DNA of 64,000 nucleotides from contig CM049317.1 in assembly GCA_026874595.1 (NCBI GenBank), positions 22,516,882-22,580,881 on the forward strand, written 5' to 3'. Positions 1-35,116 of this stretch are shown piece by piece. The stretch's first letter is position 1; each line of letters starts with the position of its first letter. The translations under genes were made by a program, and so were the position numbers. The notes under the pieces were generated by a model, which saw only the letters and a list, made by a program, of their open reading frames with translations, was not told where the DNA came from and ran no database searches. Source of the DNA: Sipunculus nudus. Its lineage: Eukaryota; Annelida; Sipuncula; Golfingiida; Sipunculidae.

Positions 1-179
1 CAGATGTATATTTTGTATTGTAAATTTATAAAATCAAAAAACTTATAAAAAATATTTGATATAATAAAAAAATGAGGATCTAATGCAATAATTTGTTCCA
101 TTTTTTCTGCCTCATTAGAATGGGAAAATAGGTTTTTCAGCTTTGCTTGTTCATCTGTCTGTTAATTTTTTTAGAAAAT

Positions 180-310
180 ATTTAATAATCATGAATCAAG
201 GTTTAGCTAAGCTGACTGTCAGCCAACTTTGCTATAGTGATCGGTCAGCGTCCGTCTGTCCGTCCGTCCATACGTATGCCTGTCTGTCTGTTAGACTGGC
301 ATGTTTTGAC
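180..310 (+). repeat. Dispersed repeat with CTGTCCGTCCGTCC core
   Basis: A short repeat with a run of TCTG/TCCG tetranucleotides and a neighbouring segment reading roughly TTTAGCTAAGCTGACTGTCA. The paralogous copy is at about 29,313-29,443. A diverged copy on the other strand is near 63,775-63,860. It looks like an interspersed invertebrate repeat; I cannot name the family. Confidence 0.5.
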
Positions 311-627
311 ATCGTTAGAAGTACGCATCTGAAACTCAGCATACTGTTAGATCTCCCAAAGAGCTACTACCGAACCCGAAATTAGGTCACTGTGACCTCA
401 TTTTTGTGATATTATAAAGAAAAAACTCCATATTTCGATATAAATCTATTGTTACTCTTTAAGATTGCATAATACCAAAACCACTTGTGTTGTTTTGCTC
501 ATATTTGGCATAAAGATTAATCAATATATTTCGTATGGACGTTTTCTAAATTAGGTATATATTGTGTAACCTTCTAGGAGTACTCGGCCATAGCATAAGA
601 TAAGATAAGAAAATCTATAGATTATTG

Positions 628-629
<2 letters not shown>

Positions 630-684
<55 letters not shown>
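630..684. repeat. (TA)n microsatellite
   Basis: About 27 uninterrupted TA units. The paralogous tract in copy B (29,763-29,803) is shorter, so length differs between the copies. Confidence 0.95.
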
Positions 685-687
<3 letters not shown>

Positions 688-799
688 AAATCATCACATA
701 CAATAGTATTTGGCTTGACTGGTTTGCTTAAACACATTAAACGGGAAATAATAAAATAAAATTGTGTATAGAAAAAAAGGACGAATGACTAAGAATATT

Positions 800-2119
800 T
801 GACAATATCATTGTGCTGCAAGTGATTTATTTAATTCCCGAACGGCTGACGCGTATGTGCTAGTTTGGGTTCTTTTGGAATTGCCTGATAGCGACCTATA
901 GCGAAGCCCCCGATTTCATTTTTTTAAACAAATAGTGTGCCGGATGACTATAGTCTTCTATAATGTTGTTTGCTTTCTTCAACAATCGTGTTTGAAATAT
1001 GGAGTCAACTGTGGGTAAACCAACCCCAATGATCCTCTCAGCTGTTCTAACTACCCTCGAACGACGGTTCCTTTCTTCGACAGTGATACTGTCTCCCCAT
1101 ACAGTGACTGACAACGTCAGGACTCCCTGAATTACCGCCCAATAAAACTTTAATAAAATCGGTTGACTGAGCCCGAAATCTTTTAGGTTCCTAAGAAAGA
1201 ATAAACATTGTTGTGCCTTCTTTACGCAATGATTAACATTTTCGGCCCACTTCAAATCAGAAGTAATAAAAATTCCTAAAAATTCAGTTACTAAGTGTAA
1301 TATTTCAGTTTTCTTCCGTCTAAAATCAATTATCATCCTCTTGGTTTTCTTTATATTTAACTCCAGATTATTTTCACAGCACTACGAAGTTAAAGTTTTC
1401 ATTTTATTGCAGTAAACACTTTCATTATTTCCCCGGATGAAATGTTGTCATCTGCAAATTTTACAATGAGGCAATCATCAGAAGTAGAGACACAGTCATA
1501 GGTGAATAGAGAGTTCAATTTTGGTGAAAGCACACAACCTTTGTGTGCTCCAATATTTAAGACCAATTCTTCGGAAATAATGTTACCAATCTTAACCACT
1601 TGAGGCTGATTTGTTAAAAAGTCTAAGATCCAGTTACACATTTTAATATTAAGACCCAGTTCTGATAGTTTTCTGATAGTGATAATTTATGGGGAAGGAT
1701 AGTGTTAAAGGCTGAGCTGATATCAATGAATAAAACCCTTACATGGGTAGATTCTCGTAAGTCGAGATGTTTAAAAATACGGTAAAGTGTGAATTATACA
1801 GCGTCATCTTCGGAGTGGTTACTACGATAGGCGAACTGAAAAGGATCAAAAGTTTCTGAAATACAGACTTTGAGATAATTTAACACCAGTCGCTCAAAAC
1901 TCTTGGCAATTACAGAAGTTAATGCAACAGGACGATAGTCATTCAAGCATGATGCATGAGATTTTTTCGGGACAGGAATAATTATTGATCGTTTAAAGAG
2001 TTCTGGCACTGTACACGATCGCAAGGACCGGCTAAAAAGAAGAGTGAGAACACCGGAAATTTCATCGGCGCAAGTTCTTAATAGTCGCGGCGTGATACCA
2101 CCAGGAACAGCCGCCTTTG
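800..2119 (-). mobile_element. LINE (copy A), 3' half: reverse transcriptase and C-terminus, dead
   Basis: Minus-strand remains of a non-LTR retrotransposon. Reading from 2,119 downward, the translation shows a fragment with VPELFKRS and PVPKKS, then NDYRPVALTSV, QFAYR and DDAV (reverse-transcriptase blocks). Next comes GCVLSP with KFADD (the catalytic YADD-type box, near 1,450-1,560), then a C-terminal stretch with LGIFITSDLKW and a VWG motif (896-1,336). The conserved PQG is changed to HKG, reading frames shift several times, and about 35 bp present in copy B is missing near 1,283. The element is therefore inactive. The order and motifs fit the Jockey superfamily (CR1/L2/Rex-like); the exact clade is uncertain. 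It is interrupted at 2,119/2,120 by the minisatellite and resumes at 15,563. Confidence 0.88.
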
Positions 2120-5100
2120 TCTACCTATGTAAACTCTACACAAGGGGACGTGCTCCTCATGGATGGTCTACCTATGTAACTCTACACAAGGGGACGTGCT
2201 ACTCATGGATGGTCTACCTATGTAACTCTACACAAGGGGACGTGCTCCTCATGGATGGTCTACCTATGTAACTCTACACAAGGGGACCTGCTCCTCATAA
2301 ATGGTCTGCCTGTGTAACTCTACACAAGGGGACGTGATCCTCATGGATGGTCTACCTATGTAACTCTATACCAGAGGACGTGCTCCTTTTGGATGGTCTA
2401 CCTATGTAACTCTACACAAGGGGTCCTGCTTTTCATGGATGGTCTACCTATGTAACTCTACACAAGGGGACGTGCTCCTCATGGATGGTCTGCCTGTGTA
2501 ACTCTACACAAGGGGACGTGATCCTCATGGATGGTCTACCTATGTAACTCTATACCAGAGGACGTGCTCCTCATGGATGGTCTACCTATGTAACTCTACA
2601 CAAGGGGACCTGCTCCTCATAAATGGTCTACCTATGTAACTCTACACAAGGGGACCTGCTCCTCATGGATGGTCTACCTATGTAACTCTACACAAGGGGA
2701 CGTGCTCCTCATGGATGGTCTGCCTGTGTAACTCTACACAAGGGGACGTGATCCTCATGGATGGTCTACCTATGTAACTCTATACCAGAGGACGTGCTCC
2801 TCATGGATGGTCTACCTATGTAACTCTACACAAGGGGACCTGCTTTTCATGGATGGTCTACCTATGTAACTCTACACCAGGGGACGTGCTCCTCATGGAT
2901 GGTCTACCTATGTAACTCTACACAAGGGGACAAGCTCCTCACGGATGGTCTACGTATGTAACTCTACACAAGAGGACCTGCTCCTCATGGATGGTCTACC
3001 TATGTAAACTCTACACAAGGGGACCTGCTCCTCATGGATGGTCTACCTGTGTAACTCTACACAAGGGGACGTGCTCCTCATGGATGGTCTACCTATGTAA
3101 CTCTACACCAGAGGACGTGCTCCTCATGGCTGGTCTACCTATGTAACTCTACACAAGGGGACGTGCTCCTCATGGAAGGTCTGCCTGTGTAACTCTACAC
3201 AAGGGGACGTGCTCCTCATGGATGGTCTACATATGTAAACTCTACACAAGGGGACCTGCTCCTCATGGATTGTCTACCTATGTAACTCTACACCAGAGGA
3301 CGTGCTCCTCATGGATGGTCTACCTATGTAACTCTACACAAGGGGACGTGCTCCTCATGGATGGTCTACCTATGTAACTCTATACCAGAGGACGTGCTCC
3401 TCATGGATGGTCTACCTATGTAACTCTACACAAGGGGACCTGCTCCTCATGGATGGTCTACCTATGTAACTCTACACAAGGGGACGTGCTCCTCATGGAT
3501 GGTCTGCCTGTGTAACTCTACACAAGGGGACGTGATCCACATGGATGGTCTACCTATGTAACTCTATACCAGAGGACGTGCTCCTCATGGATGGTCTACC
3601 TATGTAACTCTACACAAGGGGACCTGCTTTTCATGGATGGTCTACCTATGTAACTCTACACCAGGGGACGTGCTCCTCATGGATGGTCTACCTATGTAAC
3701 TCTATACCAGAGGACGTGCTCCTCATGGATGGTCTACCTATGTAACTCTACACCAGAGGACCTGCTCCTCATAAATGGTCTACCTATGTAACCCTACACA
3801 AGGGGACCTGCTCCTCATGGATAGTCTACCTATGTAACTCTACACAAGGGGACGTGCTCCTCATGGAAGGTCTGCCTGTGTAACTCTACACAAGGGGACG
3901 TGCTCCTCATGGATGGTCTACATATGTAAACTCTACACAAGGGGACCTGCTCCTCATGGATTGTCTACCTATGTAACTCTACACCAGAGGACGTGCTCCT
4001 CATGGATGGTCTACCTATGTAACTCTACACAAGGGGACGTGCTCCTCATGGATGGTCTACCTATGTAACTCTACACAAGGGGACCTGCTCCTCATGGATG
4101 GTCTACCTATGTAACTCTACACCAGAGGACGTGCTCCTCATGGATGGTCTACCTATGTAACTCTACACCAGAGGACGTGCTCCTCATGGATGGTCTATCT
4201 ATGTAACTCTACACAAGGGGATCCGCTTCTCACGGATGGTCTACCTATGTAACTCTACACAAGGGGACCTGCTCCTCATGGATGGTCTACCTATGTAACT
4301 CTACACCAGAGGACGTGCTCCTCATGGATGGTCTACCTATGTAACTCTACACAAGGGGACCTGCTCCTCATGGATGGTCTACCTATGTAACTCTACACCA
4401 GAGGACGTGCTCCTCATGGATGGTCTACCTATGTTACTCTACACAAGAGGACGTGCTCCTCATGGATGGTCTACCTATGTAACTCTACACAAGGGGATCC
4501 GCTTCTCATGGATGGTCTACCTATGTAACTCTACACCAGAGGACGTGCTCCTCATGGATGGTCTATCTATGTAACTCTACACAAGGGGACCTGCTCCTCA
4601 TGGATAGTCTACCTATGTAACTCTACACAAGGGGACGTGCTCCTCATGGATAGTGTACCTATGTTACTCTACACAAGGGGACGTGCTCCTCATGGAAGGT
4701 CTACCTATGTAACTCTACACAAGGGGACCTGCTCCTCATGGATGGTCTACCTATGTAACTCTACACCAGAGGACGTGCTCCTCATGGATGGTCTACCTAT
4801 GTAACTCTACACAAGGGGACGTGCTCCTCATGGATGGTCTACCTATGCAACTCTACACAAGGGGACGTGCTCCTCATGGATGATCTACCAGTGTAACTCT
4901 ACACAAGGGGACGTGCTCCTCATGGATGGTCTACCTATGTAAACTCTACACAAGGGGACGTGCCCCTCATGGATGGTCTACCTATGTAACTCTACACAAG
5001 AGGACGTGCCCCTAATGGATGGTCTATCTATGTAACTCTACACAAGGGGACGTGCTCCTCATGGATGGTCTACCTATGTAACTCTAAACAAGGGGACGTG

Positions 5101-8100
5101 CTCCTCATGGATGGTCTACCTATGTAACTTTACACAAGGGGACGTGCTCCTCATGGATGGTCTACCTATGTAACTCTTCACAAGGGGACGTGCTCCTCTT
5201 GGATGGTCTACCTATGTAACTCTACACAAGGGGACGTGCCCCTCATGGATTGTCTGCCTGTGTAACTCTACACAAGGGGACGTGATCCTCATGGATGGTC
5301 TACCTATGTAACTCTATACCAGAGGACGTGCTCCTTTTGGATGGTCTACCTATGTAACTCTACACAAGGGGTCCTGCTTTTCATGGATGGTCTACCTATG
5401 TAACTCTACACAAGGGGACGTGCTCCTCATGGATGGTCTGCCTGTGTAACTCTACACAAGGGGACGTGATCCTCATGGATGGTCTACCTATGTAACTATA
5501 CCAGAGGACGTGCTCCTCATGGATGGTCTACCTATGTAACTCTACACAAGGGGACCTGCTCCTCATAAATGGTCTACCTATGTAACTCTACACAAGGGGA
5601 CCTGCTCCTCATGGATGGTCTACCTATGTGACTCTACACAAGGGGACGTGCTCCTCATGGATGGTCTGCCTGTGTAACTCTACACAAGGGGACGTGATCC
5701 TCATGGATGGTCTACCTATGTAACTCTATACCAGAGGACGTGCTCCTCATGGATGGTCTACCTATGTAACTCTACACAAGGGGACCTGCTTTTCATGGAT
5801 GGTCTACCTATGTAACTCTACACCAGGGGACGTGCTCCTCATGGATGGTCTACCTATGTAACTCTATACCAGAGGACGTGCTCCTCATGGATGGTCTACC
5901 TATGTAACTCTACACAAGGGGACCTGCTCCTCATAAATGGTCTACCTATGTAACCCTACACAAGGGGACCTGCTCCTCATGGATAGTCTACCTATGTAAC
6001 TCTACACAAGGGGACGTGCTACTCATGGATGGTCTACCTATGTAACTCTACACAAGGGGACGTGCTCCTCATGGATGGTCTACCTATGTAACTCTACACA
6101 AGGGGACCTGCTCCTCATAAATGGTCTACCTATGTAACTCTACACAAGGGGACCTGCTCCTCATGGATGGTCTACCTATGTAACTCTACACAAGGGGACG
6201 TGCTCCTCATGGATGGTCTGCCTGTGTAACTCTACACAAGGGGACGTGATCCTCATGGATGGTCTACCTATGTAACTCTTTACCAGAGGACATGCTCCTC
6301 ATGGATGGTCTACCTATGTAACTCTACACAAGGGGTCCTGCTTTTCATGGATGGTCTACCTATGTAACTCTACACAAGGGGACGTGCTCCTCATGGATGG
6401 TCTGCCTGTGTAACTCTACACAAGGGGACGTGATCCTCATGGATGGTCTACCTATGTAACTCTATACCAGAGGACGTGCTCCTCATGGATGGTCTACCTA
6501 TGTAACTCTACACAAGGGGACCTGCTCCTCATAAATGGTCTACCTATGTAACTCTACACAAGGGGACCTGCTCCTCATGGATGGTCTACCTATGTAACTC
6601 TACACAAGGGGACGTGCTCCTCATGGATGGTCTGCCTGTGTAACTCTACACAAGGGGACGTGATCCTCATGGATGGTCTACCTATGTAACTCTACACAAG
6701 GGGACGTGCTCCTCATGGATGGTTTACATATGTAAACTCTACACAAGGGGACCTGCTCCTCATGGATGGTCTACCTATGTAACTCTACACCAGAGGACGT
6801 GCTCCTCATGGATGGTCTACCTATGTGACTCTACACAAGGGGACGTGCTCCTCATGGATGGTCTGCCTGTGTAACTCTACACAAGGGGACGTGATCCTCA
6901 TGGATGGTCTACCTATGTAACTCTATACCAGAGGACGTGCTCCTCATGGATGGTCTACCTATGTAACTCTACACAAGGGGACCTGCTCCTCATAAATGGT
7001 CTACCTATGTAACTCTACACAAGGGGACCTGCTCCTCATGGATGGTCTACCTATGTAACTCTACACAAGGGGACGTGCTCCTCATGGATGGTCTGCCTGT
7101 GTAACTCTACACAAGGGGACGTGATCCTCATGGATGGTCTACCTATGTAACTCTATACCAGAGGACGTGCTCCTCATGGATGGTCTACCTATGTAACTCT
7201 ACACAAGGGGACCTGCTTTTCATGGATGGTCTACCTATGTAACTCTATACCAGAGGACGTGCTCCTCATGGATGGTCTACCTATGTAACTCTACACAAGG
7301 GGACGTGCTCCTCATGGTCTACCTATGTAACTCTACACCAGGGGACGTGCTCCTCATGGATGGTCTACCTATGTTACTCTACACAAGGGGACGTGCTCCT
7401 CATGGTCTACCTATGTAACTCTACACCAGAGGACGTGCTCCTCATGGATGGTCTACCTATGTGACTCTACACAAGGGGACGTGCTCCTCATGGATGGTCT
7501 GCCTGTGTAACTCTACACAAGGGGACGTGATCCTCATGGATGGTCTACCTATGTAACTCTACACAAGGGGACGTGCTCCTCATGGATGGTCTACCTATGT
7601 AACTCTACACCAGAGGACGTGCTCCTCATGGATGGTCTACCTATGTAACTCTACACAAGGGGACGTGCTCCTCATGGATGGTCTACCTATGTAACTCTAC
7701 ACAAGGGGACGTGCTCCTCATGGATGGTCTACCTATGTAACTCTACACAAGGGGACGTGCTACTCATGGATGGTCTACCTATGTAACTCTACACAAGGGG
7801 ACGTGCTCCTCATGGATGGTCTACCTATGTAACTCTACACAAGGGGACCTGCTCCTCATAAATGGTCTACCTATGTAACTCTACACAAGGGGACCTGCTC
7901 CTCATGGATGGTCTACCTATGTAACTCTACACAAGGGGACGTGCTCCTCATGGATGGTCTGCCTGTGTAACTCTACACAAGGGGACGTGATCCTCATGGA
8001 TGGTCTACCTATGTAACTCTTTACCAGAGGACATGCTCCTCATGGATGGTCTACCTATGTAACTCTACACAAGGGGTCCTGCTTTTCATGGATGGTCTAC

Positions 8101-11100
8101 CTATGTAACTCTACACAAGGGGACGTGCTCCTCATGGATGGTCTGCCTGTGTAACTCTACACAAGGGGACGTGATCCTCATGGATGGTCTACCTATGTAA
8201 CTCTATACCAGAGGACGTGCTCCTCATGGATGGTCTACCTATGTAACTCTACACAAGGGGACCTGCTCCTCATAAATGGTCTACCTATGTAACTCTACAC
8301 AAGGGGACCTGCTCCTCATGGATGGTCTACCTATGTAACTCTACACAAGGGGACGTGCTCCTCATGGATGGTCTGCCTGTGTAACTCTACACAAGGGGAC
8401 GTGATCCTCATGGATGGTCTACCTATGTAACTCTACACAAGGGGACGTGCTCCTCATGGATGGTTTACATATGTAAACTCTACACAAGGGGACCTGCTCC
8501 TCATGGATGGTCTACCTATGTAACTCTACACCAGAGGACGTGCTCCTCATGGATGGTCTACCTATGTGACTCTACACAAGGGGACGTGCTCCTCATGGAT
8601 GGTCTGCCTATGTAACTCTACACAAGGGGACGTGCTCCTCATGGATGGTCTACCTATGTAACTCTACACAAGGGGACGTGCTCCTCATGGATGGTCTACC
8701 TATGTAACTCTACACCAGAGGACGTGCTCCTCATGGATGGTCTACCTATGTAACTCTACACAAGGGGACGTGCTCCTCATGGATGGTCTACCTATGTAAC
8801 TCTACACAAGGGGACGTGCTCCTCATGGATGGTCTACCTATGTAACTCTACACCAGAGGACGTGCTCCTCATGGATGGTCTACCTATGTAACTCTACACA
8901 AGAGGACGTGCTCCTCATGGATGGTCTACCTATGTAAACTCTACACCAGAGGACGTGCTCTTCAAGGATGGTCTACCTATGTAACTCTACACAAGGGGAC
9001 GTGCTCCTCATGGATGGTCTACATATGTAAACTCTACACAAGGGGACCTGCTCCTCATGGATGGTCTACCTATGTAACTCTACATAAGGGGACGTACCCC
9101 TCATGGATGGTCTACCTATGTAACTCTACACAAGGGGACGTGCTACTCATGGATGGTCTACCTATGTAACTCTACACAAGGGGACCTGCACCTCATAAGT
9201 GGTCTACCTGTGTAACTCTATACCAGAGGACGTGCTCCTCATGGATGGCTTACCTATGTAACTCTACACAAGGGGACGAGCTCCTCATGGATGGTCTACC
9301 TATGTAAACTCTACACCAGAGGACGTGCTCTTCAAGGATGGTCTACCTATGTAACTCTACACAAGGGGACGTGCTCCTCATGGATGGTCTACCTATTTAA
9401 CTCTACACCAGAGGACGTGCTCCTCATGGATGGTCTACCTATGTAACTCTTCACCAGAGGACGTGCTCCTCATGGATGGTCTACCTATGTAACTCTTCAC
9501 CAGAGGACGTGCTCCTCATGGATGGTCTACCTATGTAACTCTAAACAAGGGGACGTGCTCTTCAAGAATGGTCTACCTATGTAACTCTACACAAGGGGAC
9601 GTGCTCCTCATGGATGGTCTACCTATGTAACTCTAAACAAGGGGACGTGCTCCTCATGGATGGTCTACCTATGTAACTCTAAACAAGGGGACGTGCTCCT
9701 CATGGATGGTCTACCTATGTAACTCTACACAAGGGGACGTGCTCCTCATGGATGGTCTACCTATGTAACTCTACACCAGAGGACGTGCTCCTCATGGATG
9801 GTCTACCTATGTAACTCTACACAAGGGGACGTGCTCCTCATGGATGGTCTACCTATGTAACTCTACACAAGGGGACGTGCTACTCATGGATGGTCTACCT
9901 ATGTAACTCTACACAAGGGGACGTGCTCCTCATGGATGGTCTACCTATGTAACTCTACACAAGGGGACCTGCTCCTCATAAATGGTCTACCTATGTAACT
10001 CTACACAAGGGGACCTGCTCCTCATGGATGGTCTACCTATGTAACTCTACACAAGGGGACGTGCTCCTCATGGATGGTCTGCCTGTGTAACTCTACACAA
10101 GGGGACGTGATCCTCATGGATGGTCTACCTATGTAACTCTATACCAGAGGACATGCTCCTCATGGATGGTCTACCTATGTAACTCTACACAAGGGGTCCT
10201 GCTTTTCATGGATGGTCTACCTATGTAACTCTACACAAGGGGACGTGCTCCTCATGGATGGTCTGCCTGTGTAACTCTACACAAGGGGACGTGATCCTCA
10301 TGGATGGTCTACCTATGTAACTCTATACCAGAGGACGTGCTCCTCATGGATGGTCTACCTATGTAACTCTACACAAGGGGACCTGCTCCTCATAAATGGT
10401 CTACCTATGTAACTCTACACAAGGGGACCTGCTCCTCATGGATGGTCTACCTATGTAACTCTACACAAGGGGACGTGCTCCTCATGGATGGTCTGCCTGT
10501 GTAACTCTACACAAGGGGACGTGATCCTCATGGATGGTCTACCTATGTAACTCTACACAAGGGGACGTGCTCCTCATGGATGGTTTACATATGTAAACTC
10601 TACACAAGGGGACCTGCTCCTCATGGATGGTCTACCTATGTAACTCTACATAAGGGGACGTACCCCTCATGGATGGTCTACCTATGTAACTCTACACAAG
10701 GGGACGTGCTACTCATGGATGGTCTACCTATGTAACTCTACACAAGGGGACCTGCTCCTCATAAGTGGTCTACCTGTGTAACTCTATACCAGAGGACGTG
10801 CTCCTCATGGATGGCTTACCTATGTAACTCTACACAAGGGGACGAGCTCCTCATGGATGGTCTACCTATGTAAACTCTACACCAGAGGACGTGCTCTTCA
10901 AGGATGGTCTACCTATGTAACTCTACACAAGGGGACGTGCTCCTCATGGATGGTCTACCTATTTAACTCTACACCAGAGGACGTGCTCCTCATGGATGGT
11001 CTACCTATGTAACTCTTCACCAGAGGACGTGCTCCTCATGGATGGTCTACCTATGTAACTCTTCACCAGAGGACGTGCTCCTCATGGATGGTCTACCTAT

Positions 11101-14100
11101 GTAACTCTAAACAAGGGGACGTGCTCTTCAAGGATGGTCTACCTATGTAACTCTACACAAGGGGACGTGCTCCTCATGGATGGTCTACCTATGTAACTCT
11201 AAACAAGGGGACGTGCTCCTCATGGATGGTCTACCTATGTAACTCTACACAAGGGGACGTGCTCCTCATGGATGGTCTACCTATGTAACTCTACACCAGA
11301 GGACGTGCTCCTCATGGATGGTCTACCTATGTAACTCTACACAAGGGGACGTGCTCCTCATGGATGGTCTACCTATGTAACTCTACACAAGGGGACGTGC
11401 TACTCATGGATGGTCTACCTATGTAACTCTACAAAAGGGGACGTGCTCCTCATGGATGGTCTACCTATGTAACTCTACACAAGGGGACCTGCTCCTCATA
11501 AATGGTCTGCCTGTGTAACTCTACACAAGGGGACGTGATCCTCATGGATGGTCTACCTATGTAACTCTATACCAGAGGACGTGCTCCTTTTGGATGGTCT
11601 ACCTATGTAACTCTACACAAGGGGTCCTGCTTTTCATGGATGGTCTACCTATGTAACTCTACACAAGGGGACGTGCTCCTCATGGATGGTCTGCCTGTGT
11701 AACTCTACACAAGGGGACGTGATCCTCATGGATGGTCTACCTATGTAACTCTATACCAGAGGACGTGCTCCTCATGGATGGTCTACCTATGTAACTCTAC
11801 ACAAGGGGACCTGCTCCTCATAAATGGTCTACCTATGTAACTCTACACAAGGGGACCTGCTCCTCATGGATGGTCTACCTATGTAACTCTACACAAGGGG
11901 ACGTGCTCCTCATGGATGGTCTGCCTGTGTAACTCTACACAAGGGGACGTGATCCTCATGGATGGTCTACCTATGTAACTCTATACTAGAGGACGTGCTC
12001 CTCATGGATGGTCTACCTATGTAACTCTACACAAGGGGACCTGCTTTTCATGGATGGTCTACCTATGTAACTCTACACCAGGGGACGTGCTCCTCATGGA
12101 TGGTCTACCTATGTAACTCTACACAAGGGGACAAGCTCCTCACGGATGGTCTACGTATGTAACTCTACACAAGAGGACCTGCTCCTCATGGATGGTCTAC
12201 CTATGTAAACTCTACACAAGGGGACCTGCTCCTCATGGATGGTCTACCTGTGTAACTCTACACAAGGGGACGTGCTCCTCATGGATGGTCTACCTATGTA
12301 ACTCTACACCAGAGGACGTGCTCCTCATGGCTGGTCTACCTAAGTAACTCTACACAAGGGGACGTGCTCCTCATGGAAGGTCTGCCTGTGTAACTCTACA
12401 CAAGGGGACGTGCTCCTCATGGATGGTCTACATATGTAAACTCTACACAAGGGGACCTGCTCCTCATGGATTGTCTACCTATGTAACTCTACACCAGAGG
12501 ACGTGCTCCTCATGGATGGTCTACCTATGTAACTCTACACAAGGGGACGTGCTCCTCATGGATGGTCTACCTATGTAACTCTATACCAGAGGACGTGCTC
12601 CTCATGGATGGTCTACCTATGTAACTCTACACAAGGGGACCTGCTCCTCATGGATGGTCTACCTATGTAACTCTACACAAGGGGACGTGCTCCTCATGGA
12701 TGGTCTGCCTGTGTAACTCTACACAAGGGGACGTGATCCACATGGATGGTCTACCTATGTAACTCTATACCAGAGGACGTGCTCCTCATGGATGGTCTAC
12801 CTATGTAACTCTACACAAGGGGACCTGCTTTTCATGGATGGTCTACCTATGTAACTCTACACCAGGGGACGTGCTCCTCATGGATGGTCTACCTATGTAA
12901 CTCTATACCAGAGGACGTGCTCCTCATGGATGGTCTACCTATGTAACTCTACACAAGGGGACCTGCTCCTCATAAATGGTCTACCTATGTAACCCTACAC
13001 AAGGGGACCTGCTCCTCATGGATAGTCTACCTATGTAACTCTACACAAGGGGACGTGCTCCTCATGGAAGGTCTGCCTGTGTAACTCTACACAAGGGGAC
13101 GTGCTCCTCATGGATGGTCTACATATGTAAACTCTACACAAGGGGACCTGCTCCTCATGGATGGTCTACCTATGTAACTCTACATAAGGGGACCTACCCC
13201 TCATGGATGGTCTACCTCTGTAACTCTACACAAGGGGACGTGCTACTCATGGATGGTCTACCTATGTAACTCTACACCAGGGGACCTGCTCCTCATGGAT
13301 GGTCTACCTATGTAACTCTACACCAGAGGACGTGCTCCTCATGGATGGTCTACCTATGTAACTCTACACAAGGGGACGTGCTCCTCATGGATGGTCTACC
13401 TATGTAACTCTACACAAGGGGACGTGCTCCTCATGGTCTACCTATGTAACTCTACACCAGAGGACGTGCTCCTCATGGATGGTCTACCTATGTGACTCTA
13501 CACAAGGGGACGTGCTCCTCATGGATGGTCTGCCTGTGTAACTCTACACAAGGGGACGTGATCCTCATGGATGGTCTACATATGTAACTCTATACCAGAG
13601 GACGTGCTCCTCATGGATGGTCTACCTATGTAACTCTACACAAGGGGACCTGCTTTTCATGGATGGTCTACCTATGTAACTCTACACCAGGGGACGTGCT
13701 CCTCATGTGATGGTCTACCTATGTAACTCTACACAAGGGGACAAGTTCCTCACGGATGGTCTACGTATGTAACTCTACACAAGAGGACCTGCTCCTCATG
13801 GATGGTCTACCTATGTAAACTCTACACAAGGTGACCTGCTCCTCATGGATGGTCTACCTATGTAACTCTACACAAGGGGACGTGCTCCTCATGGATGGTC
13901 TACCTATGTAACTCTACACCAGAGGACGTGCTCCTCATGGCTGGTCTACCTATGTAACTCTACACAAGGAGACGTGCTCCTCATGGATGGTCTGCCTGTG
14001 TAACTCTACACAAGGGGACGTGATCCATATGGATGGTCTACTTATGTAACTCTATACCAGAGGACGTGCTCCTCATGGATGGTCTACCTATGTAACTCTA

Positions 14101-15562
14101 CACAAGGGGACCTGCTCCTCATAAATGGTCTACCTATGTAACTCTACACAAGGGGACCTGCTCCTCATGGATAGTCTACCTATGTAACTCTACACCAGAG
14201 GAGGTGCTCCTCATGGATTGTCTACCTATGTAACTCTACACCAGAGGACGTGCTCCTCATGGATGGTCTACCTATGTAACTCTACACAAGGGGACGTGCT
14301 CCTCATGGATGGTCTACCTATGTAAACTCTACACAAGGGGACCTGCTCCTCATGGATGGTCTACCTATGTAACTCTACACAAGGGGACGTGCTACTCATG
14401 GCTGGTCTACCTATGTAACTCTACACAAGGAGACGTGCTCCTCATGGATGGTCTGCCTGTGTAACTCTACACAAGGGGACGTGATCCATATGGATGGTCT
14501 ACTTATGTAACTCTATACCAGAGGACGTGCTCCTCATGGATGGTCTACCTATGTAACTCTACACAAGGGGACCTGCTCCTCATAAATGATCTACCTATGT
14601 AACTCTACACAAGGGGACCTGCTCCTCATGGATAGTCTACCTATGTAACTCTACACAAGGGGACGTGCTCCTCATGGAAGGTCTGCCTGTGTAACTCTAC
14701 ACAAGGGGACGTGCTCCTCATGGATGGTCTACATATGTAAACTCTACACAAGGGGACCTGCTCCTCATGGATGGTCTACCTATGTAACTCTACATAAGGG
14801 GACGTACCCCTCATGGATGGTCTACCTATGTAACTCTACACAAGGGGACGTTCTACTCATGGATGGTCTACCTATGTAACTCTACACCAGAGGAGGTGCT
14901 CCTCATGGATTGTCTACCTATGTAACTCTACACCAGAGGACGTGCTCCTCATGAATGGTCTACCTATGTAACTCTACACAAGGGGACGTGCTCCTCATGG
15001 ATGGTCTACCTATGTAAACTCTACACAAGGGGACCTGCTCCTCATGGATGGTCTACCTATGTAACTCTACACAAGGGGACGTGCTACTCATGGATGGTCT
15101 ACCTATGTAACTCTACACCAGAGGAGGTGCTCCTCATGGATTGTCTACCTATGTAACTCTACACAAGGGGACGTGCTCCTCATGGATGGTCTACCCACGA
15201 AACTCTACACCAGAGGACGTGCTCCTCATGGATGGTCTACCTATGTAACTCTACACAAGATGGCCTCCTCCTCATGGATGGTCTACCTATGTAACTCTAC
15301 ACAAGGGGACCTGCTACTCATGGATGGTCTACCTATGTAAGTCTACACCAGGGGACGTGCTCCTCATGGATGGTCTACCTATGTAACTCTACACAAGGGG
15401 ACGTGCTCCTCATGGATGGTCTACCTATGTAACTCTACACAAGGGGACGTGCTCCTCATGGCTGGTCTACCTATGTAACTCTACACCAGAGGACGTGCTC
15501 CTCATGGATGGTCTACCTATGTAACTCTACACAAGGGGACGTGCTCCTCATGGATGGTCTAC
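2120..15562. repeat. Giant 46-bp minisatellite array (about 292 units)
   Basis: A 13,443-bp head-to-tail array of a 46-bp unit. The unit begins CTACCTATGTAACTCTACAC, continues AAGGGGACGTGCTCC and ends TCATGGATGGT. Recurrent variants include CCAGAGGACGTG for CAAGGGGACGTG, CTGCCTGTG for CTACCTATG, GTGATCC for GTGCTCC, CTCATAAATGG for CTCATGGATGG, a 47-bp unit with GTAAACTC, and a 42-bp unit lacking GATG (about 7,316, 7,402 and 13,433). Single variants are shared by non-adjacent units, which shows block-wise amplification. Each unit carries a TAA, and 46 is not divisible by three. Open frames within the array are therefore short and accidental, and I do not consider it coding. It interrupts a LINE at a site that is uninterrupted in copy B. 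Confidence 0.98.
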
Positions 15563-17010
15563 CGTATGTCTAAGGAGGAAAGAATTCTCTTGGCATCTAA
15601 AGTTTTCATAATAAATGTAGGCGGATTGTCACAAGATGTCTTCTCAGAAAGGTTTTAAGGCCGATCAAAGCGAGCATAAAATTTGTTTAATTCATCAGGA
15701 AGATTCGGATCGTCTGAGATAGGGTTAGTACTTAGTTTTCTTGTTCACAGTACAATTGCCTTTATGCGCTGCCACGTCTGCCTGGAATCATCCGTTGTCC
15801 CTAGAGCAGATTCCAGCTTTTCGGTATATTTGATTTTAGCGAATTTGATGGCACGTCTACCTTCATATTTTGCTTATTTAAATTTGTTTGAGTCACCACT
15901 TCGATATGCCATGTCTCTGTCAATCAATTTATATCTGATTGAACGGTTGAACCATGGTTTATTATTCGGGTACTCTGTAACATTTTTATGCGGTATGCAT
16001 AGCGCCTGACAGAATCTCAGGTAATCAACAACCACCTCTGTGCTCTTGTTTAAATCATTGTTCAACAACACAGACCAATCAGTGCAAGCGTAGCAGCCTT
16101 GAAGGGATTGAATGGTGATTTCGCTACATTGCGGAAAGGACTTAACAATGGGTTTTCCACGCTTCAGTTGCTGGCGATACTGGGGCACAAGGTGAACAAT
16201 GTTGTGAGTCTCCGAGCGGGGCGCGTCGTAGAGACTTGTACACGTCTTCAGTCGTGGTGTAACAATGATCCAAAACCTTGCCATATCGTGTTGTACATTT
16301 AACATGTTGATAATATTTCGGTTGGCATTTTTTCAAATTAGTATGGTTGAAGTCTCCAGCTTTAATGTTAATAACCTCTGGGTTTTTATTTTCGTTTTCA
16401 GTCACAATACTTGACAGCTGTACGATAGCAGACAAAGAATCGCTTCTTGGGGGATATAGGCGATGGTCAAAATCAGTGAACTAAATTCTCTTGGCAGGTA
16501 GAATGGGCGACACTTAATTGACAGAGATTCCATCTATGGGGTACATGATCTAGAAATCACTTTCGTGTCCTTACACCATTTTTCGTTAATAAGAAAACAC
16601 ACTCCACCACCCTTTGATTTAGCAACACAGTCAAATTGACGGCCATGACGTAAAATAGCGAAACCTGGAGGCGTCACGGCGGAGTCAGGGATATTATCGT
16701 CGAGCCTTGTCTCGGCGATGAAATATGCGCAGCACTGACCGTAGTCTTTTCTTGTGGATACATGACAGCAAAATTCGTCGAATTTATTGCAGAAGGAACG
16801 GGCATCGGCTAATATGATGCTTGGTAGAGGCACCCGCGAGTTGCGTCTCCGTAAGCGTACGAGTGCCCCCTCCCCCAACCCCCTCGCTTGCTATGCCTCC
16901 GTCTACGAGAATGGTTCTGTTGGCCTGAACAATGACCTGACTTGTGAACAATTGTTCACAATTTCATCGATAAAATTCACATTTGCGAGGTTATTATAAT
17001 CCAATTGATA
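15563..17010 (-). mobile_element. LINE (copy A), 5' half: endonuclease and start of RT, dead
   Basis: Continuation of the minus-strand LINE on the far side of the minisatellite. Between 16,534 and 16,878 the translation matches the N-terminus of an APE-type LINE endonuclease: a basic leader with RLRRR, then AETRLDD (the catalytic ETW-like box with W changed to R) and KSKGGGVCFLINEKWC. Fragments between 15,874 and 16,435 carry linker sequence between endonuclease and RT, with several frameshifts. The paralogous LINE in copy B (29,930-32,730) is continuous, so both halves belong to one element present before the duplication. The 5' end is approximate. Confidence 0.85.
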
Positions 17011-17362
17011 ATCACTAAGGCTAAGATGGTATAAATCCTCTCTTCCGTAAGTATGCGTAAGAATAAAATCCTGGCACTATGAGTGAACATGTATTATAAT
17101 GTATATTGTCAACATATGAATAAAGATATTTATCCAAATTATATGGTAACTGTTGAAACCTTTTCCCAGCATGTAACTGTATTTAAATAGATTTAATTGT
17201 ATACAAGAAATTAGGTCAAGATTTTTCTTTATTTGAAAGTTATTAGCCTAAGTGTACAATCAGTGCTAAATGTTGCCCATTTTTTCACCCTATGATTACT
17301 TTTATTCAAGTTTTTAACCACCATGTCAAAAATTGTTGAGGCCAGAACGGTACTGTGGTATA

Positions 17363-17365
<3 letters not shown>

Positions 17366-17424
<59 letters not shown>
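17366..17424. repeat. (GA)n microsatellite
   Basis: About 29 GA units. The copy B tract at 33,067-33,101 is shorter. Confidence 0.95.
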
Positions 17425-17428
<4 letters not shown>

Positions 17429-17830
17429 TGCAGTTTCGGCCTCCCAAACCAATTTCTTAACTCACTTCAGTTCTGGATATCTTTACTCAGCTGAGCCTAG
17501 GTCCCCCTCAGTTGCACATTTATGCCTGTAAGCACTGTTGATATAATTTTATAAGATGCACATATACTGATTTAAGCTGTTACGGTCTCAAATTTGAAAG
17601 CAATTGAAAAAAAAAATTATAAGACCATGTCATAGGTGATGTGACCACCTGAGGCTGTTAATGTAACAAGGTCAAATAAACAAGATGAATCTGAGAATTT
17701 CATTGTTGATATAAACATATGTCATATTTAGGAACATGCTTCATCGTTGAAATATATAAGTTAATAACTATCAATATTCCCCTATCTAGTCAATTACATG
17801 TCACTAGACTAATCAGCCTCGATGTGTGTA

Positions 17831-18167
17831 AGTCCCTTCAAAATTCCCTATATGTTATGTAAAAGCGGGACCTCTATATGGCGGACACCTCACTACTGCG
17901 GGCAACGAGCAGCAGATTTCAAATCAAACCAACATTATAAGAGTAAATGTAACTGATAAAAAACGGACACGATACGTCATCTCCGGCGCACACTGATCGG
18001 TCGCCCCGGGTAACATCAAAGGCCCCCGGTACTGTTGTTGTTCCCGAGACTGGAACACAAAGGATTTTGCAATTCCAGTTGTTACCTTAATGCGTGCACG
18101 TGCTCATCTAACGGTGTGGTGTGCTCACAAGATAAACACAGCAAGGGTGAAGCGGTAAAAATCGTGC
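17831..18167 (+). mobile_element. Tigger/pogo element relic (copy A), termini lost
   Basis: Matches the inner part of the intact element at 48,390-49,054, including AAAGCGGGACCTCT, GGCGGACACCTCACTACTGC and GTTCCCGAGACTGGAACAC. Neither terminal inverted repeat survives, and the internal HTH-coding relic is gone. The right flank (TGTGTATAATTATATCAG) is the same as beside the copy C element, so this is the same insertion, later trimmed. The copy B equivalent is at about 33,510-33,847. Confidence 0.75.
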
Positions 18168-19193
18168 GTGTGTGTATAATTATATCAGAACCATAATAGT
18201 TCTGAAATAAATTTGAACACAGAAGGCGGAGGGGAAGGAGTTAGGGAGTTAAAGGAGTTAGGACATCAATGGTCAATACTGCATTTAACGCTGAAGCATT
18301 AATCCAGATAGGAAAACGCCCTATCCAGTTAATGACCACGTAAACCAGTATAATACATAAGCAAGTGACCTTCAGGTCAAGTAAATAATGTAGTTGGCAC
18401 CCGAATATTAAATAATCACAAGTGGGTAAAAGCTCTGTTGGTATTACATTCTCTTTAATCTTCCGAGAATAAATAACTGTATTGGCAACCAATGTTGTGT
18501 TATTTCTTTAAATAAATTTAAATCTTATTATCAACGTCGTGTAGGTGTATGTGGATTTAGTCATGTGCCAAGTACGTGTTACTGAAGCCCCGGAAGAGAA
18601 AGTTTCCTGTGTAAGATAAAACTAATTGTATTCATCAAGGTTACTTATACGTAATACACATGTCTAATTTGGCTCACCAGGGATTCAATATATTTGCATC
18701 AAATGATTTCTGTGTAATATGTCACTCTAAACCCGTATAGCCGTACCGAATTGAAGAACCATGAAAAAAATTATTATATATTTTGGTTACATCTCTTCTT
18801 TTAATATTTCAATAATTGCATCTTAAGTCAACGTGTTTGCTTAATTACCTCACAAGAGTAATAACCACATAAATAATTGCATTTATATAAAGCACTAATT
18901 TCAGAATTAAGAGGAACAATGACTTGCATGATTCTGTAAACTTATAACATTACTTAAACAATTACATTACTAATTATGTATTACTTCAATAATCAGGAAC
19001 AAATGGAAAAAATAAACATGCACTGATACCGTTAATTACATAGAAAATAAAAATTAACACATGATAAAGACTATCAAAGTGGTATATGATTGCTATAATT
19101 TATTGGTAAAACAAAAACGCCACCACCAATCTAACATCGAGCTCATCCATATATACTTGTCATACACATGCCCAGACATGGTTATTTGCAGTC
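18168..19193 (+). other. Upstream region of lectin-like gene A
   Basis: Non-coding region shared by copies A, B (about 33,848-34,951) and C (about 49,057-50,165). It presumably contains the promoter, but I see no TATA box or transcription start that I can defend. Conservation into the older copy C reflects shared ancestry and is not by itself evidence of function. A lacks about 75 bp near 18,238 that B and C both retain. Confidence 0.5.
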
Positions 19194-19269
19194 ATGTACC
19201 GGTTGATAATGCATATGGGGCTAGCAGTTAGTCTGTTCTGTGTGCACGATGCTTACACGGATGGCAAAG
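19194..19269 (+). CDS. Gene A exon 1: signal peptide
   Basis: The start was chosen at ATG 19,194 (MYRLIM), which gives a basic n-region followed by a hydrophobic stretch ([14 protein letters not shown]). A second in-frame ATG at 19,209 would weaken the signal. The exon ends AAAG|GTAACT in phase 1. Compared with the orphan exon in copy C it lacks 30 bp, which shortens the hydrophobic core. Confidence 0.6.
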
Positions 19270-19308
19270 GTAACTTGATAAATTATCTATGTTAACCTTC
19301 ATATAAAA

Positions 19309-19378
<70 letters not shown>

Positions 19379-19380
19379 TT

Positions 19381-19422
<42 letters not shown>

Positions 19423-22400
19423 GTATATAGTCATAATTTGTTGCAAAAACTGATGGCTGAGTGTTCGATAGGTAACTAGAGCATTTCTATGTTGTGCAGA
19501 AAGAACTAAACTAGTTTTTTTGCAGGCATTTCATGACTAATAACTTTCGTACCACACGCTCAGAGCGTGTGGCACTGTTCAGATGTTGTAGCCTAATAGT
19601 GCTGTGAATATCAGTTGCGGAATAAAGTCACTGGGGTCATGATAAGCTGTGTGGCGGCATCCATCTTTGATGAGGGCCGGCATCTGGTATTTTCACTGGT
19701 CCGAATGCTGGAGGCTGCGTATAAGGAAACCCGAGATCAATACTGTACTGGTCTGTTCGTTGTCGCTTGTTTGGTGTTGTGTTATATATTCCGCAGCAGG
19801 AATTAATGTGCGTGTTTACATGCCGTCACAAGTTGATATCTTTTGTTTAGAATTGCGAGTTGGGGTTGACATAAGGAAACATGATAAAATATCTACTTAA
19901 AGCCTCGAATACAAGCAAATAATAATGCATTAACATTAGATAAATTAATAAGGGATTAATAATTAATATGTTCTGAATAATCGCTCAGTATGTTTAAAAA
20001 GATTGCTGGTTATGCCCTACCCTCCTAGCTGCAATCAGATGAAGGTACAAATAAATATGACCCAGACACTGTAATGTCTGTTCAAATAGGTACTTGAGTT
20101 AACTAAATGAACCACATGTTTTAAAACCAAGGCTTGCATGTTTGGATTTACAACATCCATGTCTATCACAAGGGGACATGCTGCACATTCAATCTTTAGC
20201 TTAATCATTACAATTAATCATGGAATTGTTTGCTTCCTTTAAGTCCAATCCACGAAACCAAGCCCCTATATCGTGTAAATTATATCTCTAACAAGAATTT
20301 ATTACGGATAACCAATACCATTCCAAGCCTGTAAAAGAAACTTAACGCGTTGTTGAGAAGAAGTACAGAGCGTTTAGTAATTTATTTGATACTTAATGAC
20401 ACATGAAAAAAGGTAATTTATTTAAATCAATGAAGACACCAATAAAGACGATTCAAAGGGTAGCGCTCTCAGACACGTGTTTGTCCATTATATCACAAAC
20501 AAACAGGTGCCTTCAGATTATGATGTGCAAAAAAAGCCCCTTTTCTTTTTTTTCATACAATATGCATCTTCTGCCACAGAGTGTGATTGATTAAATTTTT
20601 AATAAAGAAGCGTGTGTCACTGAGGTTTAGAAAGAAAAAATATCATTGAACTTTGGTTTTCCTAAGATATCATTGACATGGAATGTCGGTTAAATCAGGC
20701 TTTAGTTGATTTTAATCGCGTTATCTGTGATTGGTCAATTTTATGACTCAATATTAATTTGATTGCTTTCATAAGATTATAAAATGACAAGGGTCATAAC
20801 ATATCTACATGCCGTCACACAGGTATTCCACTAATGCTCTAAGCACGTTCAGTTATGACATATTCATACATACGGATAAAGGACATCTTACTGGTGCATG
20901 CTTTCTCGATCCAACTATCGATACAATCATTCATTCACTATTACTAAGTAAATCCGGCCAGTTATGTTTACAAAAAGAACTCTATATAGAATGTTATTCC
21001 TCTTATTTAAAGTCTCTCAATCATACCAGGCAATGGGAAATTATCAAGACCGAAAATATTGAATACGCAAGTTACTCTATATCAGGTTTTATACCAGGAC
21101 CAGTATGAATTATTCTTTGTATGACTTAAAATGACCTAAATTAAATAAATATGTTACATATGCAGATGATACCAAAATGTACATTTGGAGAGTGATAGCA
21201 CTTAGAGAAGAATATTACATCAAGGTGTCAATCTGACGGGTAACTGGTTTGCTGTCAATCGATTGACCAATAATGTAGCTAAAATTAATATAATGTTATA
21301 AAGGAGTGATACGCGCGTGTATTGTAATAAACTAAACCTATTGGTTGACAGTGTAGTTCTACAACATCTTTACGTAACAATAATATAAGATATAACTATT
21401 GCTGCCGACCGATCTCGCTAAGCACATGGATAATCAGCACCATCAATAACGTACTACCTAAAACAACGCCTATAGGTAGGTCAGAATTATTGTTATTTGT
21501 CATAAACTATCATGATTACTCAAGGTGATCTCCAATGAATAATCCTATGCCCGGAATGGAGTACAAAAGATTAATTATTATTATTGAATATTTGTCAATA
21601 TGATCATTGAATACAAAAATCTCTGGAGAATTTAGCATGAAGATTTAAAGTATTCCCCATTAATAAACACTTTTTATTCTTAAAATAATACCAATACATA
21701 CTGGGTGAACGAAGAACACTTTAGATGTATCTATATTTAGTTTTATATTTATTACTATTACTCCATCAACTAAGGGGAATACCTGGGACGAGGCACATAT
21801 GACTGGGCTGTAACCACTTGCACCAACCTAAGTATGACACTCGCCTCTGAACGACAGGATAGCCACGCTCTGATCAAGATAATGGAACAGTTTAAATTAG
21901 ATTCAATGTGGCTGGGAATCCGTTATCTAACGCGCTCAGTATGGAATTGGATTCGCCCAGGCATCACAAACGGGATAAAAAGTAAGTTTTCAATTTGCGA
22001 GTGCAAGATAATAACGCAAAATATAGCTTCGCATTGATCAAAGTATTTTTTTTTCTGTTCATGCGTAAGCCTTTAATTTTTTTTATATGTTTATACTTCA
22101 GCCAAAATGTTTGTATTCCGAAACAGTGGCTCGATGCCGTGCGGTGCTCTGTATGGGAAAAATCTGTATGCAGCAAACTGTTTCATAGAATTACCTGCAC
22201 TTTGTTCTTTCAAAGGTATCTAGTTTATTATCTGAAAAAGCTTACATTTCAAACGGCAAAAAAGAATGCGTTCGGTTATCTCACTTATATAAAAGAGTAA
22301 TTTATATCAACAGCTGTATAAGTACGCACATTAGCTTCATATTGTTCATTTTTATTATTTCCAATGTGCCTCCTTTAAGCAGTTAAAGTGAAAGATGCTC

Positions 22401-25400
22401 CCTTTTCATGACATTTGAACATATTGATATATCCTAATAACCAGGCGTATTTATAAGGTAAAAATACAAATAAAAAAAAAATTATACATTTGTTTACAAT
22501 TATCTGTTTTTAACTCCTTTCAAACTTCACAACGTTAACGGATTATGCTCAATTTTTTATAAACCCCTTGCTTTTTAATTTGTCATTTATTATTTAACGT
22601 ATCAGGTCAGTTCTTTCTGATAACTTTCTTTAGTTCAGCTGCATCTATCAATGATTCTAACTCTGCGTCTTTTTTCCATAGGTATCTGCCCAAAATATGC
22701 TGACCGGTGTATTTCGGGCCCGAAGAATATGTCACCTACCTGGCTTGGTATAACATCCGGCAAAAGTAACTGGTTTGGCGTATTTGAGAGATGTAAAAAA
22801 ATGGGTGGTGTTCTGGTTAACACTGATGTTGCTATAACCTACTGGGCACCTCACACAATTCCGGAAATGGAGGCGTGGATTGCTCTATCAAAGGGTGGCT
22901 GGTTCCGGATTGGATCAAAAGGAGGCCCGTTGGTCACATTTTCTTAACACACTAGCATATACAGTAACATAAACAAAAACGAATGATATCTTCTTTGGAT
23001 CACTTTCGAATATGTCTAACATTGCCAATGAAAAGTTTATTAACCTCCTCCACACCGGTAACTGCGAAACGGCCACTTTTTACACTGAAAAAAAGTATTG
23101 CTTTCCCCATGGTTTGCAACAGCTTTTATCCAAAAAATAAATACATTTTAAAAAGTGCATTGCAGTGCCATTACCGTATTTACTTGATCAGACGCCGGGC
23201 CTTAAATAGTCGCCTCCTTCTTTAGTCGCCGGGGTAAAACAGTGTCCAGAAAAATAAACGCAGGCCTTAAATAGACGCCGGTTTTGTCCACAGGCCTGGT
23301 TTCAGAGTACTTTCAATGTTTGCCGCCAGATGTCTTATCCCTTCATTATAATTGGTGCATTTACCGGTCAAATTTACCATAGATTGTTGTATGAATTTCG
23401 GTTTGTGTTTTATTGATAATATGTTTCATTCTTCTATAAATCATTCTTCTTTTCTTACATGAATGCCTGTTTCCATGAGGGACGCCAAATATTCCCGATT
23501 CATCCTTTATGATTAAAGTCGATCACCGATCCTAATTAACGCTACACAAATACGTCAGCAGTGAGAAGCTAACACTATTACTGCTGTCAAGCTAGATAAC
23601 AATTGTACCGCCTAATACAAGCGGTACAACTTAGTACGATGAAAGTAAACCTTACGGATGGTTGAACAGAACTGTTCAAATACGTTTTTGCACATATTTC
23701 TTATGCAGCATGAAGACACCAAATGATGGTGTCAAGCGGTACAATTTGTAGCTACTGTCAAGCCAAATTACGCTCTTTGCTTTCATTTTTGAAGCGCTTT
23801 TAATAGTGTCCCCACTGTTACCAAAACTACGCTTCGAGATAAACTTTAAAGTTAGAAATAGCATTTACTCTTGTCAAAAATAATATTTTCAGAAATATTT
23901 CCGGTAGTACATGTCCCATACAGGTATATACCAGGTCGGAAACGCTTCAATACGCTGTGTCAAGCTGAATCATTTAAAAGTCGGACGGAAAGTGTAATGA
24001 AAACGAATTAGGCAATGCGTTATACGTACCAGCCCCCCATTTTTCGATGGAACAAATATTACTAGTTGTCCACGGTGCACAGGTCATTGAAGAGCCACCC
24101 GTGTTCAGTATAAACCAGGTCAGAAACGCTTAAATACGCTGTGTGGAGCTGAATCAGTTGAACATTTGACGGGAGGAAAGTGTCATGAAAATTACACCGT
24201 GCCGTTAGAGGTACCAACGCCCCGTATTTCGGCGGAACCAATGTTACCTGTTGTACGCGGAGAACAGTTAATGGAAGAGCCACCCGTGTTCAGAGGGAAA
24301 CAATGTTACAAACAACACGCGGTTTAAAATAAATGGAACAGCCACATTAATCACCTGGGTAACTGGTTTCAAGAGGCCCACGCCTACAGATTCTTGTCGA
24401 CAACTGCAGTCTCTCGCTGTGATTCCCCGCTGATTCTTATTATGGTGCGTGATTGTGGAGATTGTGCGTGTCCCATATCCCTATGGCATCTAAGGAAATT
24501 TCGTAAACATAATCCGTGTACCGGCGATGTTTCTCAATTGTGTCCCTAATTAGTGACCGGCGGGTTTATTTATTTGGCATGTTCTATTTTGGTAGCTTGT
24601 CTGATGAGCCTGATAATGTATTTTTTAATAAACGCCGGTATTAAATAGAAGCTGGCCATGTTTAGACGCCTGGTCAAAGCAGGGTTTGAAAAAAAATAAA
24701 CGCCCGGGCGTCTATTCATTATTCATTATCATTTTGTTCAAGCTAATCACCATATTTCTTGAAATCGATACATTTTACTATTCGGTTATGCTTTTATATG
24801 ACGCAATGTGACATAATATTACTCATGCGTCTGATTTGTGTGCAGATCATGTTCAGGTAACAGAAGATTATTGGGGGAACCATACAACTTGGAGTGAGGA
24901 TCAAGTGTGTACATACTTAAAACCCCGGAAAAAAGGACCACCTGTATGGAAACCAATAAACTGTCAATCAAATATGCCTGCGGTATGCATTACGGGTAAC
25001 AATTAAGGTTTTAATGTGTAGGGAATTAATATAACATGGGTATTGCCGTATTCTATGAGAGCTTTGATTTTTTTTTACTCTTTATACGAGGTGGTGAGGT
25101 TCAGTTTTTCATATACCTTGATTTAGTTGGGAATTCCTTCACTTGTTTTATTAATTGAAAATCAATAAATCCTTTCCAAATACCTTTCCAAACCCATTAA
25201 TGGTAAAGACAGAAAAATTTCCGCATTATGCGTAAAGTTGAATCATTACGATTTATAACTAAAACTGTCTCACCATAAGGTCTAAAATAATTATGCTATA
25301 ACGTTCAGATATGCCACATTATTATTAATTGTTCACCATTCATATTTTCATTAAAACAATCAAAATGTATGTTTTGCAACAAATTGGTGACATAACTCAG

Positions 25401-26576: not shown

Positions 26577-26714
26577 TACTACGTGATCGATCCGGATTAC
26601 GCAAGGTGGAGCACAGGGCGCCCTGTTGTTGGGGAGACGATACTTCCCTCCACCGGAAGGGTAAAGCCATGAAAAACATCAGAATGGATTTGGTTAACTT
26701 TGACACAAAGAAGA

Positions 26715-26720
26715 AATAAA
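26715..26720 (+). terminator. AATAAA polyadenylation signal (gene A)
   Basis: A canonical AATAAA about 140 bp after the A stop codon; the equivalent in B is at 42,579-42,584. The A/B similarity ends shortly afterwards. Confidence 0.55.
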
Positions 26721-26752
26721 GAACTTGAATTGAATAGCAGTAATTTTCCATT

Positions 26753-29762: not shown

Positions 29763-29803
<41 letters not shown>
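29763..29803. repeat. (TA)n microsatellite (copy B)
   Basis: About 20 TA units, paralogous to the longer tract at 630-684. Confidence 0.95.

Positions 29804-29806
<3 letters not shown>

Positions 29807-33064: not shown

Positions 33065-33066
<2 letters not shown>

Positions 33067-33101: not shown

Positions 33102-33105
<4 letters not shown>

Positions 33106-35066: not shown

Positions 35067-35116
<50 letters not shown>

Follow-up and report, generated by a model that had tools for sequence, protein, structure and literature searches.

A 46-bp Minisatellite Array Within a LINE Copy of Sipunculus nudus, and Its Empty Site in a Paralogous Copy

A tandem array of 292 units of 46 bp is present in one of two LINE copies (termed A and B) in a 64,000-nt stretch of Sipunculus nudus DNA, the whole of which was analysed and is referred to here as the window. 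The second copy displays the same LINE sequence uninterrupted at the corresponding position. The insertion in A is clean, the array contains copied blocks of units, and its units are more diverse than would be expected from the divergence between A and B, which is lower. The best explanation appears to be an insertion into LINE A, probably of an older array from elsewhere that was already diversified, followed by growth in place by the copying of blocks. The probability given to this reading is about 0.48. Feature positions are listed in Table 1.

Table 1. Positions in the window of the array, its host LINE, the duplicated segment and related sequences.
Feature	Position	Strand	Basis
46-bp tandem array, 292 units + 6 bp, in LINE copy A	2119..15562	.	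TRF and wraparound alignment
LINE A, RT part, 3′ (coding sense) of array; outer limit approximate	899..2118	-	ORF pieces; Pfam RVT_1 and ALKBH8_N
LINE A, part 5′ (coding sense) of array; outer limit approximate	15563..16890	-	ORF pieces; alignment with B
Empty site in LINE B, between T and C, inside Arg codon of LDIR/KAAVPDGI (minus strand)	31272..31273	.	A/B alignment, ORF reading and junction text
Duplication copy A, with array; left end outside window	1..26757	.	Self-comparison and A/B alignment
Duplication copy B (part matching A within window), without array	29134..42622	.	Self-comparison and A/B alignment
Partial match to unit positions 16–41, 23/27 columns; also B 35964–35990, 22/27	20162..20188	+	Local alignment
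13-bp exact inverted match to unit positions 2–14, LINE B, ~370 bp from empty site; A counterpart 12/13	30892..30904	-	Local alignment
40-unit block, units 0–39, 0.4% from block at 11321–13163	2119..3962	.	Unit alignment
Second copy of 40-unit block, units 200–239	11321..13163	.	Unit alignment
20-unit block, units 84–103; near-identical at 7727–8647, first 17 units again at 9847–10629	5986..6906	.	Unit alignment

The array

The unit sequence is GTCTACCTATGTAACTCTACACAAGGGGACGTGCTCCTCATGGATG. By wraparound alignment the array has a length of 13,444 bp and ends with an incomplete unit of 6 bp (GTCTAC). TRF calls a single array at 2119–15569 (period 46, 292.3 copies), and the minisatellite of about 292 units that was described at the outset as splitting the LINE is therefore real. 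Most units (268) are 46 bp long, with 20 of 47 bp, three of 42 bp and one of 44 bp. The units are arranged head to tail and are longer than 10 but shorter than 100 bp, which places the array among the minisatellites. It consists of units only, with no foreign flank. The variants of the unit include the classes T20+C23+A26, G5+G9+A34, TT36-37 and AA42-43.

The distance of units from the consensus shows no clear gradient along the array. Folding of one unit is barely above that of shuffled sequences (z = −1.2 for one strand and −1.1 for the other; z = −1.7 for two units), and neither RNA families (gathering scores) nor tRNAs (ARAGORN) were detected across the window. The first 22 bases of the unit have no exact match in viral_contigs and genome_contigs, which are viral and prokaryote collections only. 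In the portions of the literature available to a search, no report was found of this array or of a minisatellite in a LINE with its empty-site pair; absence from print is not claimed.

Junctions and the empty site

The left junction reads GCCGCCTTT/GTCTACC and the right junction GTCTAC/CGTATGTCT, where the slash marks the array limit. In B the flanks are joined as GCCGCCTTT/CGTATGTCT with the break point at 31272/31273, one base away from the position 31,273/31,274 given in the preliminary description. The sequence GCCGCCTTTCGTATGTCT, at 31264 in B, occurs only once in the window when both strands are checked.

When the array is removed in silico, A and B align gap-free over the junction and no target base is lost or gained. 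This alignment bears out the earlier statement that there is no target-site duplication, since the target bases at the array ends are unrepeated. The ambiguity of the junction is one base (C) at most, and microhomology is at most 1 bp.

The minus-strand frame of B runs through the site as RILACLDIRKAAVPDGITPRLLRTCADEISG, with a longer reading of RILACLDIRKAAVPDGITPRLLRTCADEISGVLTLLF. It includes an RT-type motif, LDIR/KAAVPDGI, whose arginine codon is split by the array in A. Both the alignment and the minus-frame reading show the LINE in B to be uninterrupted, as had been proposed, and no residue of a unit is present at the empty site. Because the motif is unbroken in B, the B sequence is taken as the pre-insertion sequence. 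Most likely B carries the ancestral state and the array is an addition to A; the intact motif makes this argument stronger than it was when first put forward.

Several types of carriage and homology were considered and rejected. A transposon that makes a target-site duplication does not agree with the array ends. Helitrons insert between A and T and have ends of the form TC...CTRR; here the insertion is between T and C and the ends are GTCTACC...GTCTAC, so a Helitron-borne array was set aside. For Helitron or DNA-transposon carriage generally, there is no target-site duplication, no AT target and no element end beside the array. An apparent phase homology at the right junction (CC-TATGT compared with CCGTATGT) is equalled at 6 of 300 random LINE positions, and it was discarded because 5 of the 46 unit phases (its own included) score equally high.

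The host LINE

LINE A and LINE B have in-frame stops in common, e.g. NKFK-stop-AKYEG, and thus the LINE was dead before the duplication. One stop is confined to A, by inspection. The earlier description of the B frame as a normal RT N-terminal sequence suits the motif, but not the element, which is dead, with stops shared by both copies. The B stretch gives a weak alignment with human L1 ORF2 (8uw3, E = 0.5), in which RKAAVPDGIT lies opposite KKSPGPDGFT, and at E 0.01 the B piece spanning the site matches no Pfam model. The LINE A part just downstream (coding sense) of the array matches RVT_1 with E = 1.7e-5 and 25.1 bits, which is below the curated cut-off of 29.6. The C-terminal piece of the LINE (899–1381) also shows a match to ALKBH8_N (E = 1.4e-8, 34.7 bits), a Pfam model that tends to match LINE proteins. 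A search for LINE relatives in viral_contigs yielded 28 pattern matches, of which none was confirmed.

The A/B duplication

Copies A and B are collinear over 13,210 aligned bases and show 517 differences (3.9%); in the LINE part there are 67 differences in 2,564 bases (2.6%). The similarity extends beyond one mobile element, the LINE being only a part of it, and A and B are thus a segmental duplication. It continues beyond the left edge of the window, as the A/B match is already running at base 1.

The high identity (94%) stops at 26757 in A and at 42622 in B. Past the end of A, however, stretches of 124 bp (69%) and 83 bp (79%) match the sequence that follows B, in the same order and about 1.5 kb further on. 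These ordered matches would suit an assembly artefact, in which A and B are alleles placed in tandem or the array is misplaced, and a divergence of 3.9% can occur between alleles in very variable animals. But the two stretches are far more diverged than A is from B, and the 83-bp stretch is a dispersed repeat, as it is found again at 17529 and 33206. Alleles should keep about 96% identity past 26757/42622, which argues, though without full force, that A and B are paralogues rather than alleles. The window contains no N bases, and the ordered blocks inside the array (see below) suit real long-read sequence. An artefact is therefore considered highly improbable, and even if allelic, A and B would remain a filled and empty pair.

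Five segments of 29–56 bp are present in B but not in A (at 30403, 33919, 33957, 35717 and 38066), with end microhomology of 0–3 bp. Apart from the array and dinucleotide-repeat lengths, no segment of more than 12 bp is present in A but not in B. An older, partial third copy of A 17829–19366 is found at 48454–50354 (80%–88% identity); it may stem from an earlier duplication event or belong to a dispersed repeat.

Diversity of the units and age of the duplication

The mean pairwise difference between units is 7.7% (0.0772, substitutions), and the average distance from the consensus is 4.5%. Adjacent units differ by 8.7% when length changes are counted. The pairwise value is higher than the A/B divergence, both over the whole alignment and in the LINE. 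If A and B changed alike, the change per lineage is 1.3%–2.0%, and in an array derived from one unit after the split, the difference between units cannot exceed roughly double what has accumulated along the A lineage.

Growth from 1 to 292 units was simulated in burst, linear and exponential modes, with 400 runs per setting. For birth from one unit at root-to-tip changes of 1.3, 1.96 and 2.6%, none of the 400 runs per setting attained the value of 0.0772 in any of the nine settings; at 1.96% the highest mean pairwise difference was 0.060. With all A/B change placed on the A lineage (3.9%), it was reached in 69, 102 and 18 of 400 runs (burst, linear and exponential, respectively). Birth of the array after the duplication at an ordinary mutation rate is thus unlikely. 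The array is an addition to A, as proposed; its origin from a new seed once the A/B duplication had taken place is less certain, as a birth at the rate of the flanks conflicts with the unit diversity.

The excess of unit diversity over A/B divergence implies that the array was already diversified on arrival, or mutates at about two to four times the rate of the flanks, or is older than the split. The first of these corresponds to a ready-made, diversified minisatellite that may have moved whole into a new site with neither duplication nor loss of target bases, its units being older than the site; this is put forward tentatively. On balance, import of an existing array is given slightly more weight than an on-site birth combined with rapid mutation, although a raised mutation rate in the array would also explain the diversity, with no import.

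The divergence of the flanks close to the site bears on the third possibility. A and B show 8 differences in the 100 bp to the right of the array (P = 0.005 by comparison with the rate in the LINE, 0.046 with that of the whole alignment) and 11 in the 200 bp around the site (P = 0.018 and 0.17, respectively). A rise of this type is what a conversion tract would leave if the array predates the duplication, or was polymorphic at that time, and B kept or regained the empty state, for example because conversion gave it the sequence of an allele or LINE copy that lacks the array; the unit diversity would also fit an array of this age. The rise is small, however, and mostly on one side. Moreover, internal recombination alone would leave a partial unit, whereas B has none and its motif is intact. 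This explanation is considered improbable.

The types of change within the array were compared with those between A and B. Adjacent multi-base changes account for 11 types in about 60 array variant events (an estimate from 71 distinct variants), compared with 31 of 478 A/B events (P = 0.004; P = 0.03 when only 9 types are counted). The ratios of transitions to transversions are alike, 32:33 for array variants and 252:265 for A/B. The multi-base changes and the flank divergence are weak signs of raised mutation in or near the array.

Search for a seed of the unit

Within 250 bp of the site, no match to the unit is above chance, the best score being equalled by 389 of 400 shuffled units in A and 279 of 400 in B. 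Amplification of the unit from LINE sequence at the junction, in the manner of a TE-derived tandem repeat, was rejected on these scores, and the earlier statement to this effect stands. That B has no seed is true for these 250 bp but is less clear further out, where there are two weak partial matches (Table 1). The one at 20162–20188, 4.6 kb from the array, has a score of 32, which is reached by 3 of 1,106 shuffled units and by 0 of 238 shuffled windows; it differs from the unit by about 15%, more than a copy younger than the split would have accumulated at the flank rate. The 13-bp match in B has a score that 4 of 400 shuffled units attain within 500 bp (42 of 400 for the A version), and over the whole window it is equalled by 188 of 1,106. 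Both were found post hoc, by looking everywhere, and they are regarded as an open lead rather than as the origin of the array.

These matches enter into the possibility that the array was born on site. In that case a short filler of about 52 bp, bearing GTCTAC at each end, would have been added during break repair in LINE A. The array would have begun by slippage or unequal exchange between these 6-bp ends, and would then have grown while mutating at two to four times the rate of the flanks. The array displays flanking direct repeats in the 5–10 bp range and a partial last unit: it begins and finishes with GTCTAC and has n units plus 6 bp, as expected by the models in the part of PMC3389668 that was available. 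This is weak support, as any array leaves a remainder of 0–45 bp and about 6 in 46 would show one of 5–10 bp by chance. The raised divergence to the right of the array and the clustered changes point in the same direction, as does break-linked instability: the available text of PMC7615360 indicates that minisatellites become unstable through meiotic breaks and that, in humans, the repair of breaks is mutagenic. On the other hand, birth on site requires a raised mutation rate as a further assumption, the transition/transversion balance equals that of A/B, one of the two candidate seeds is too far from the unit, and both were found after the fact. Birth on site is regarded as rather unlikely, though it is the most serious of the alternatives to transport.

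Copied blocks and the probable mode of growth

Long runs of units are repeated within the array in the same order. In addition to the 40-unit block in Table 1, units 84–103 differ from units 122–141 by 0.2%, units 84–100 from 168–184 by 0.1%, units 118–138 from 164–184 by 0.6%, and units 149–168 from 183–202 by 1.2%. Thus five runs of at least 17 units show 0.1%–1.2% divergence, and runs of 10–11 units show up to 1.6%; it should be noted that runs were chosen at no more than 2 differences per unit, which skews the sample to young copies, and that some runs overlap. The longest run of identical units is 19; when the order of the units was shuffled 20 times, it was 3–4. Provided that the mutation rate of the array is no lower than that of the flanks, the block copies are younger than the A/B split. 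Recombination-type copying of tracts of about 1–2 kb fits the blocks better than slippage of single units.

Other repeats in the window

At 53307–56381 a 187-bp unit is repeated in tandem about 16 times (87% matches); the best matches of the 46-bp unit outside its own array include no similarity to it. A 185-bp tandem unit with AT runs is present in 2.2 copies (99% alike) at 50315–50722; a stretch there looks tRNA-like by eye, but ARAGORN finds no tRNA. Minus-strand pieces at 52079–52866 resemble a Penelope-type reverse transcriptase by eye, and at E 0.01 a scan of 52079–52642 matched no Pfam model. The short sequences at 27071–27399, 44075–44260 and 60265–60892, which lie in unique parts of the window, are mutually similar (69%–78%), partly in inverted orientation, and form a dispersed repeat family.

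Proposed origin of the array

In the preferred reading, insertion of an older array, the dead LINE would have been part of a segment of more than 13 kb whose duplication gave rise to A and B. At some time after the duplication, LINE A may have been broken between two bases, and repair would have sealed in DNA made up of 46-bp units alone, with target bases neither lost nor duplicated. The inserted DNA would most likely have come from an older, diversified array elsewhere in the genome, as a copied or circular fragment. After arrival the array may have expanded at its new site as blocks of about 17–40 units were copied in a recombination-type process, and not mainly by slippage of single units.

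The beginnings of arrays with long units are usually difficult to trace, as the sequence from which they started has been lost; here the pre-insertion sequence is kept in a paralogue that can be dated. The units are more diverged than the two copies of their site, a contradiction that can be tested. If a ready-made array did move, the empty paralogue and the block copies would allow its arrival and its later growth to be timed separately.

Comparison with known systems

Hypervariable minisatellites resemble the present array in the 46-bp unit, the interspersed variants and the block-wise copying; expansion by conversion is a view cited in the part of PMC3389668 that was available. Unlike them, this array is known from one sequence, is 13.4 kb long with 292 units, lies in a dead LINE and lacks a clear gradient of consensus distance.

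The models of minisatellite birth of Taylor and Breden 2000 and Haber and Louis 1998, as described in the same portion of PMC3389668, share with the array the n units with an incomplete end and the 6-bp bounding repeat. These models, however, start from sequence at the site, and no unit of this kind is present at the empty site in B. TE-derived tandem repeats, from what is accessible of PMC3389668 and PMC12628747, are likewise tandem arrays inside a transposable element, but the present unit does not belong to the LINE sequence at the insertion site and was not amplified from it.

Templated insertions at double-strand breaks, to the extent covered by the available text of PMC11724301, show little microhomology and short inverted local copies, as is the case here. 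They differ in that no convincing template was found for the present insertion and that the inserted DNA is itself an array. Rolling-circle concatemer arrays (PMC12628747, available in part) also involve a concatemer inserted at a new place, though no element ends, terminator or circle are seen here. The kind of event is already known, and the present example is a clean and unusually well dated one.
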